Below are positions 60,902 through 64,000 of a stretch of 64,000 nt of DNA, in pieces. The stretch is from positions 62,001 through 126,000 of the forward strand of contig JADBYZ010000004.1 in NCBI GenBank assembly GCA_020402745.1. Direction: 5' to 3'. Made by a program: the position numbers and the translations under genes. The number at the start of each line of letters is the position of its first letter. Position 1 is the first letter of the stretch. Source of the stretch: Phenylobacterium sp. GTDB lineage: Bacteria > Pseudomonadota > Alphaproteobacteria > Caulobacterales > Caulobacteraceae. A model generated the notes under the pieces. The model did no database searches and was not told where the DNA came from. It saw only the letters and a program-made list of their open reading frames with translations.

Positions 60902-61069
60902 CTATTCCACCGTCACCGACTTGGCGAGGTTGCGGGGCTGGTCGACGTCCGCGCCCTTCTGGACGGCGACATAGTAGGCCAGCATCTGGATGGGGACGGC
61001 GTAGACCAGGGGGGCGACGATCAGGCGGACGCCGGCGGGGGCGCGGCGGGCGCCCTCCTCGTCGAGGTG
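60902..61069 (-). pseudogene. glmS: 3' fragment of glmS (glucosamine-6-phosphate synthase)
   Basis: The last 50 or so codons encode [20 protein letters not shown] and [18 protein letters not shown], the unmistakable C-terminus of GlmS with its terminal SVTVE. The rest of the roughly 600-residue enzyme is missing. Around 61066-61070 the GC-rich coding sequence gives way to AT-richer unrelated DNA. This is the expected signature of an element inserted in, or recombined with, the glmS 3' end. A functional glmS should lie elsewhere, quite possibly at the far end of the element. Confidence 0.88.
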
Positions 61070-61106
61070 AATAGAAAACATCCTGTGGAGCCCAACAAGG
61101 GATTTA

Positions 61107-64000
61107 CTACGCATGGACTACACCCTTAGGTCCCAGCAAAACGTAGAGCCTATATGGCCAAGCATACTCTTCGAAATCTGTCATTTCGCTGCCGTACAGC
61201 GCGCTTTTGCGATTGACCTCGATGCTCAAGAGCAGTCGATCGTTCGGTCGAGCTTTGAAAAGCTCCTCAAGGAAGTCTGTGTTCGCGGAAAGGCGCCAGC
61301 CGGGTACAATATCGCTGTCACGGCGCAAGCTCAGGCTCTGGGTCCAGGTTTCGGCGCGAAGGAGACCTCCGTCGGCGCATTGAAAGGCCCGGCCGTCGTC
61401 GCTCCGATGAAGGCCCATGGCGGCGATGACCTCTTCACTGGGTGTGGGGCCTGGAAAGCGCATCCCTTCCGACCAAGGGTCGTACTCGTCGAGCCTTGCG
61501 GATGGTCCATTGTCACGGATCCAGCCGGTGCATTGGTGAGTTCCATCGTCGATGTCCGTCTCGTGGTCGGCATCAGGTAGCACGTAACGATCCAGTTCTT
61601 CGGCAGTCTGGAGCGCCGCGAGAAGTGATTCCGCAGCCGCCGTCGGCACAAAGGCGCTCCGCACGTCGACCGTCTCCGTTTGTTCGTTCCACTGGCGGCG
61701 CCAATGGCCCCAGACAACCCGCGCTCCGTCATCTGCCATTAGCTGGTCGTTCAGATAGGCACGATTGACGTCCCATCGCCAAGTGGACGTGTTCTCTTGT
61801 CCCGTCTGTACAGGGTCGAGCATCGGCCGCGGGTCGCGGCGATCCGCCAGCCAAGTCCCATCACCACGCGCCAAACGATAGCCGTCTAGCCATTTTTCGA
61901 ACTCGTTGAACTCATAGCCCACAAAGTGGCGGACCGCTCGAGTTTCAAGGAGGTATGCGGCGACAATCATCATGGCGTGGTATCCATGATAGGCGCGCAT
62001 ATCGTCACCTCGAGGCATACTGCCGTGAGAATGGTGGGTCTCGTCGCCGCGGAAGATCTTGCGGGTGAGCCTCGCGTCATCGCGCCGGTCACCTGAATTC
62101 CATTTCAGGTGATCGCGGACGACGCCCCTAGCCCGCCGCTCTACAGTGCCTTGGGTCACACCAAAGGCGTCGGCCAGGAATTTGAACCAGTAGTGCGCAA
62201 TGTCGATGCCGAAGTGATACGTCTCTTCGTCTGAGCTGGGCTCTTGTGCCGCATCTACCTCAGCGAGGTCGGTGCCCGCCCAACGAATGACCGATCGCAC
62301 GGGTTGGGCCGGGCGGTTGACGGCGGCCGGATCGACCGCCGAGGCATGGTCGATAGCGCCGACGGCAACAAGCCGCGATAGGGAATTCGCCGCCAGCTCA
62401 CGGATCAGCACATGGGGAAGGCCCGTCCAGGCACGCAACAGGGGCGCGGCGTTCGTCATGGCGTTCGGCATAGAAATTGCCGCACGTGCCAAGCCGATCG
62501 CCAGCCACTGTCGGGCGTGCCAGAGGTAGAACTCTAGGCCCTGGTCGGAGAATGCGCCGGCGTCGTCTCGGCCGGCCCAGGCCAAGATCGCGTCAAGAAG
62601 GTCTCGCCAGCCTAGCTCAACAATATCGCGGACGGCGTGTGCGAACTCCCACCTCTCGGCCGGAAATGGAGATCCCAGCCCGGCCCAGATGTAACCGGCC
62701 AAGGCGGCCAGCACATCGGGGGGCGGCTCCACCGCTGGCCGCCAGGGTCCGTTCCCATCAGCCGGTTCGAGAAGACCATCCAGCAGGTCCAGCCCATAGT
62801 TTAGGGCGTCTTCAGCCTCTGGCCGAGATAGGCGCGATGCGAGGGTGTCGATGGCCTGAAACAGCGCGCCAGCGCTTAGAGTGTCGACCTGTTCGGCGAA
62901 ACCCTCAAGGGTGGCGGTCACGACATCCGCATCGGTAAAGACGCCCTCGGCCTGCAGGCGATCAAAGGGCAGCGGGACGTTCCAACCCCGACGCCGGACC
63001 TTATGCGGTTCACGCTGGCAAGCGGCCAAGACGGCGTCACGGATGGCCGATCGTAGTGCAGGACGCGCGGGCGTGGGCTTCGGCAATGCCTCCAGCAGGT
63101 CGCGCAGCTTGAACAGGCTGAGGTCCGGCCATGCCGCGATAGCGTTGATGAGTTCTGGCGCACGCCCAGCGCCAGCGCGCGCGAGGGCTTGGCTGCAGAA
63201 TTCATCGAACCGATAGGGCGGATCGTAGGTCTTTACTGCTTCGTAGGCACCCATGAGCGCGGTGGCGTCTGCGAAATCGACGTCCTTGAAGATCACCTCC
63301 CAGTCAGGATCCCGATGTTCGGCTGCGTGCGGCCCGGGTGACGACGCATCGATTACCGGCGTAGGAGACAGCGCGGGCTGCGCCGTCAACGCCAGCAAGC
63401 GGTCGATATCCGCGAAGATGACACCATGGGCGTGGCCAAGGTGCGCGATCTCCGTCCAAGTGTCGTACTGATAGGGCTGGACGCGCATATAGCGATACTG
63501 GATCTGCATGGCGGTCTCGCGGGCCGAAGGATCGGACAGGCTGGCCGCCACGGCCTTTAGATCCTTCAGCCGGTCCCAATGCGCTTCGAGGCCCGCGAGC
63601 GCGACCGGCGCCGTAACCGGCAGACGGGATTTCTCGACCATACGGTCGATGGCCAAGGGGATGAGCCGATTCCGGTTCCCGAACCGACGGTCGCGCCAGC
63701 GACTTAGGATCGCGAACACCGAGGCCGGGCTGAGATCCGTTAGTACCTCGACTGTAGAGTCCCAAGCGAAGTGCTTGTCGCGCACCACGTACTCATAGGT
63801 TAGTTCGGCGGCCCTCGACAAACGATGGGCGGTCCGAGCCTTCGGTTGCGCCCCATCCGCGGCGGCGCGGCCCAATTGCAGGAATGCATCCCACCGGTCG
63901 AGGTTCTCGTCGCCGATGCGGCTGGCGAGGGCCACGGCCCTGTTGAAGACCGCCGCGGCCTCCGTCGGGCTTACCTTAAGTAAAGCGCGCGCCAGCTTGG
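61107..64000 (-). CDS. Very large helical protein of unknown function, N-terminus beyond the window
   Basis: At least 964 residues; the frame is open through base 64000, so the GTG at 63935 need not be the true start. The N-terminal 550 residues are dense in amphipathic helices ([40 protein letters not shown]), like HEAT/TPR-type arrays. About 600-740 is rich in His, Trp and Tyr ([20 protein letters not shown]). The C-terminus, [20 protein letters not shown] then [18 protein letters not shown], is mixed alpha/beta. No Walker, nuclease, HTH or membrane motif was seen. Base composition is clearly lower in GC than the core. Unrecognised; it could be the sensor half of a large STAND-type or other defence protein, but that is a guess from size and location. 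Confidence 0.75.

Follow-up and report, generated by a model that had tools for sequence, protein, structure and literature searches.

Genes and features at the locus

The window analyzed here is a 64,000-nucleotide stretch (C34:62001-126000) of a draft genome of 46 contigs (G000). Toward its right end, two native genes are followed by a second, detached glmS 3′ end (the orphan), a short spacer, and the C-terminal part of a large defense gene that runs past the window. The features are as follows.

59406 to 60245, minus strand: PhzF-like gene, the next native gene (PF02567, E = 5.3e-51), which is also the site of a separate restriction-modification (RM) insertion in relative G067
60242 to 60892, minus strand: FMN_bind_2 gene, the native downstream neighbor of glmS (Pfam PF04299, E = 5.4e-58)
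60898 to 61064, minus strand: the orphan glmS end, which agrees with intact glmS at 166 of 167 positions apart from a 24-bp deletion
61010 to 61021, minus strand: deletion scar in the orphan, with a single ATCGTCGCCCCC in place of the two that intact glmS carries at a spacing of 24 bp
61065 to 61106, minus strand: 42-nt spacer from the Avs3a stop to the orphan, the right end of the inserted DNA
61107 to 64000, minus strand: Avs3a-type STAND nuclease, C-terminal part, continuing past the window to G000:C34:129364 (if started at ATA) or 129472 (first TTG)

The protein end encoded by the orphan, ...NLAKSVTVE (window positions 60902 to 61063, minus strand), matches positions 567 to 607 of the glmS model TIGR01135. 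The stop codon TAG lies at 60902 to 60904, and the orphan ends 4 bp past it. An in-frame deletion of 24 bp leaves 53 of the last 61 glmS codons. Identity to glmS stops at 61064, where the spacer begins, followed by the tail of the long open frame (61107 to 64000 onward). A chance match to glmS was ruled out by length and identity. In contig coordinates the orphan is C34:122898-123064. A glmS family search of the same genome found one full copy, on the same strand of the same 146-kb contig (model match at G000:C34:129498-131309, minus strand, 779 bits, above the cut-off), and two further matches, on C1 and at C34:140575-140973, both partial and below the cut-off.

The original prediction, made from the window alone, held that the window ends in a glmS 3′ fragment terminating in SVTVE, that this fragment is a displaced scrap bordered by lower-GC DNA, and that an intact glmS must exist elsewhere. 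The fragment is confirmed by the model match, and the intact gene lies on the same contig, 6.4 kb to the right. Displacement is supported by the native FMN-binding gene, which still stands 9 bp behind the orphan. The compositional border holds as well: the insert that separates the two glmS copies has a GC content of 63.8%, compared to 69.5% in window positions 1 to 60900, and its tetranucleotide deviation is 0.26, compared to 0.152 to 0.207 in nine equal chunks of the core.

The insert encodes an Avs3a-type protein

The insert between the glmS copies measures 6,426 nt and is taken up by a single long frame of 2,121 codons, counted from TTG, with ends of 42 nt behind the gene and 18 to 126 nt before it, depending on the start codon chosen. 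The protein matched the PADLOC Avs3a profile (PDLC02167) at near full length (2,412.6 bits, residues 42 to 2112, profile positions 6 to 2081 of 2090). The NCBIfam Avs3a model was matched over positions 1 to 2080 of 2083 at 2,539 bits, short of the 2,800 bits set as its cut-off, and Pfam returned only weak NACHT/AAA matches, also below cut-off. On sequence grounds the protein is therefore called Avs3a-type, while scoring under the NCBIfam equivalog cut-off. Alignment to SeAvs3 (PDB 8dgc; 1,447 bits over residues 42 to 2091), a member of Avs3, or AVAST type 3, was likewise near full length, and the stretches QLKHST, GVGKS, and IIDAADNAQMAAE are common to both proteins in the alignment as printed in part. 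We take QLKHST, GVGKS, and IIDAADN to be the nuclease and nucleotide-binding (Walker) motifs.

SeAvs3 senses a phage protein, the terminase large subunit, then assembles and cuts DNA with its N-terminal nuclease. By analogy, the protein of the insert probably works in the same way, through phage-protein sensing, assembly, and DNA cutting. It differs from Avs3 in its score below the NCBIfam cut-off and in having no ATG at the usual place. In 16 of 24 printed homologous loci, counted by eye, a Met stands six residues ahead of the first conserved V/L/I, while the other 8 do not fit. In this gene the corresponding codon, which lies beyond the window at L005 11362-11364, is ATA, and a GGAG precedes it by 8 nt. 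ATA is an allowed but rare start codon in table 11. The frame is open upstream of it and contains TTG codons at distances of 36 and 22 codons. A consensus-based search of the region around the glmS end and the Avs3a start turned up no promoter-like or terminator-like sites.

Homologues of the gene are distant and scattered. The nearest near-full-length homologues are 51 to 53% identical. Plasmid records gave 19 Avs3a matches (best, 53.0% identical), and a collection of species genomes gave 26 confirmed loci, 31 to 62% identical in the best segment. Within the family, 8 of 390 genomes have an Avs3a match, G000 included. Phage records returned no match, and IMG/VR returned one pattern match and no confirmed one.

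An empty site in relatives and a 191-bp target duplication

Compared with relatives that lack the insert, the boundary of the original prediction resolves into an empty site and a direct repeat of 191 bp. The four closest relatives sampled, chosen as those with the closest glmS ends (G079, which is a single contig, G051, G208, and G067), have glmS next to the FMN_bind_2 gene, with gaps of 9, 9, 11, and 11 bp, respectively. In G000 the native downstream sequence is found behind the orphan and not behind intact glmS, and the letters downstream of the orphan equal those of G051 up to the FMN start, with a gap of 9 bp. Because the orphan carries the native downstream sequence of the empty-site relatives, it is, on this comparison, the old chromosomal end of glmS, and the intact gene now ends in inserted DNA.

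The duplicated target, which comprises the last glmS codons, the stop, and 4 bp, is 191 bp long in intact glmS (L005 11491-11681), and the orphan (L005 4898-5064) retains 167 nt of it. Apart from the 24-bp gap, the copies differ at one base (166/167 identical). The gap is flanked by two 12-bp repeats of ATCGTCGCCCCC and removes 8 codons in frame; because it sits between these repeats, the loss looks like a slippage-type deletion. The differing base is C in the four aligned relatives and G in the orphan, and none of the four has the deletion, from which we infer that the derived states are those of the orphan. Over the whole gene, glmS of G000 and G051 is 96.95% identical (1751/1806; 55 differences). 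By hand estimate, this rate predicts about 5 differences in 167 nt, compared to the 1 seen. The low divergence of the two copies relative to this rate suggests that the duplication is probably younger than the split of G000 and G051, or that the copies have been homogenized.

A draft assembly of 46 contigs with two nearly identical gene ends is where a misjoin at the repeated glmS end might arise. However, the copies are distinguished by the 24-bp deletion and one base, each junction is unique sequence, and the genes flanking the locus to the left and right stand in the order seen in the empty-site relatives. We therefore regard an assembly artifact as very unlikely.

No recombinase gene seen within the insert

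The original prediction had expected an integrase-borne or Tn7-like island and, on extending the contig rightward, an intact glmS together with integrase or Tn7-like genes. The intact glmS was found, but neither the open reading frames of the insert nor its family matches included an integrase or a transposase. As for an integrase-borne island, the insert is a single gene, and the only two Phage_integrase matches in G000 lie on other contigs, C4 (with an accA-like neighbor) and C5 (with a dihydrolipoamide-dehydrogenase-like neighbor); by eye they look like XerD and XerC. The Tn7-like element finds no support either. glmS is the classic Tn7 target, and the downstream attTn7 site would place a transposition at this locus, but one frame without transposition functions fills the insert, and the 191-bp duplication stands against a Tn7 target duplication of about 5 bp. 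We consider Tn7-like transposition extremely improbable. TniQ gave no match in G000, and the controls were equally without one. The island reading is thus half right: in our judgment, the locus is likely a lone Avs3a inserted with a 191-bp target duplication.

Two serine recombinase (resolvase-type) matches are present on other contigs of G000, and these could still have acted in trans at the glmS insert. At G000:C4:71508-71966 (L157) there is a large serine recombinase frame, 493 amino acids from ATG, among small neighbor genes, which is possibly another mobile element. Ku had no match in G000, and 1 of 14 control genomes had one. Caulobacter crescentus is described as being without nonhomologous end joining (PMC9632790).

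The family was also searched for other insertions at glmS, using the last 61 GlmS residues as a query against 249 genomes at an E-value at which very short fragments are missed. A GlmS-end match was obtained in 243 of the 249, with two matches in 12. In ten of the 11 two-match genomes other than G000, the second match is a full-length glmS-like frame on another contig, and in the remaining one (G145) the matches are two contig-end fragments. A tandem orphan beside intact glmS was found in G000 only among the 249 family genomes (243 with a match).

In G145, both contigs (L057 and L059) stop 318 bp short of the end of glmS, with 95.6% identity between the two copies. The copies lead into different chromosomal-looking genes, and the contigs searched in this genome did not yield the glmS body.

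The insert might alternatively be the remnant of a site-specific integrative element with its att site in the glmS 3′ end, which carried a replacement gene end and lost its integrase. Prophage e14 at icd carries such a replacement end, and the locus, like islands that displace gene ends in this way, has a stranded 3′ piece of the gene at its far border. As with att sites in gene ends, the duplication also extends only slightly beyond the stop, and glmS remains whole. In contrast to e14-type islands, however, the insert holds a single gene between short ends, no integrase or remnant of one being visible, and no comparable glmS-end duplication with an element occurs among the 249 family genomes, the two ends in G145 being contig-end fragments. 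Element-borne replacement ends are usually divergent, whereas those here differ by one base outside the deletion. A decayed element is therefore unlikely.

Insertion with a long target duplication as the proposed origin

Four things are directly observed: the target is duplicated, relatives have an empty site, the insert contains Avs3a, and no recombinase gene is seen inside it. To account for them, we propose as the probable origin that Avs3a was acquired horizontally and inserted behind glmS in this lineage, with duplication of 191 bp of target and no dedicated integrase. Avs3a would have entered directly behind glmS as a single-gene cargo. A broken or replicating chromosome may have been joined to the incoming DNA, with two chromosomal ends that overlapped by 191 bp, through recombination independent of a dedicated integrase. 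The resulting order would be glmS, Avs3a, orphan glmS end, and FMN-binding gene. The copy joined to the glmS body would keep the gene intact, while the far copy would be free to decay, as by its loss of 24 bp between the 12-bp repeats.

The original paper on the insertion of RM genes with long target duplication is reportedly that of Nobusato et al. (2000). One later account describes target duplications that are long and vary in length, on the order of 100 bp, at the insertions of some RM systems (PMC3874152); another gives an example from Helicobacter pylori (PMC1643837), and in a third, such an insertion is suggested for an H. pylori RM cluster (PMC4978471). The route is known for RM genes but poorly understood. 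The locus in G000 resembles these insertions in that a defense gene without a visible vehicle is flanked by a direct target duplication on the order of 100 bp, with a single-copy empty site in relatives. Unlike the RM insertions described, its cargo is an Avs3a STAND nuclease and not an RM system, its host is an alphaproteobacterium from the family of Caulobacter-like genomes (judged by gene content), the essential gene stays whole, and it is one example only. A search of the literature, in titles and abstract openings, found no Avs genes paired with long target duplication.

Turnover of defense genes is fast, and often no vehicle can be seen. In this case the states before and after are both available at base resolution, for one large defense gene beside an essential gene left whole. 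The locus would extend the insertion pattern of RM genes to another class of defense, with a junction that can be tested. Taken alone, it is a single case of a known protein family, and the pattern is already known from RM genes. We also considered whether NLR-like defense genes such as Avs3a can travel singly and naked, entering genomes by insertion with long target duplication, with their own DNA cutting as a possible aid. Such a general mechanism of Avs3a mobility was tested by a repeat scan of 31 other Avs3a loci and was not found: none has a direct repeat of at least 50 nt across the gene, and two have repeats of 26 and 34 nt. Twenty of the 31 loci are near full length with about 2.5 kb on both sides, and 11 are partial matches or short-flanked; as a control, self-comparison at like settings recovers the G000 repeat. 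We regard this generalization as quite improbable.

An allele mosaic and a second defense insertion

In a comparison of 52 of 56 genus genomes (G026, G108, G175, and G202 were left out, and a few stretches were short), the FMN gene was found in five loci only, those of G000 and the four relatives above. Identities between these genomes vary by gene: G000 is 96.5% identical to G051 and 76.2% to G079 in the FMN gene, 81.9% and 91.0% in phzF, and 97.0% and 95.4% in glmS. From these values, the glmS-FMN-phzF stretch is best described as an allele mosaic within a clade of five related genomes, with 76 to 97% identity by gene and pair.

Such a mosaic, in which the identities of FMN, phzF, and glmS differ by pair, would suit homologous import of a glmS region in which Avs3a and the orphan were already present, delivered from a close relative by a gene transfer agent or by transformation. 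Caulobacter gene transfer agents are described in one report as carrying about 8.3 kb and as serving homologous recombination (PMC9632790). Against import, the arrangement is in no other genome among the 249, and of the 8 of 390 family genomes with Avs3a, the other 7 have none reported beside glmS, the neighbors having been viewed for two only. We hold import to be possible but doubtful. It adds a later transfer step to the insertion with long duplication, and our confidence in the two overlaps and does not sum to one; import from a relative bearing the arrangement shifts the insertion event and does not explain it.

A defense insertion is present in this stretch in two of the five genomes, G000 and G067. 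In both, the edge of a native gene is duplicated and both neighbors remain readable. With such small numbers, the duplicated edges may reflect selection on survivors and not mechanism.

The insert in G067 is 4.37 kb long and lies at the phzF start, between the FMN gene and phzF (L040, about 2895 to 7264). The first 14 bases of phzF are found at both of its borders with one mismatch, which is weak evidence alone. It is a type II restriction-modification insert that encodes a C5 methyltransferase (PF00145) together with an MvaI/BcnI-type endonuclease (PF15515); among its other small frames, one is Vsr-like by eye.
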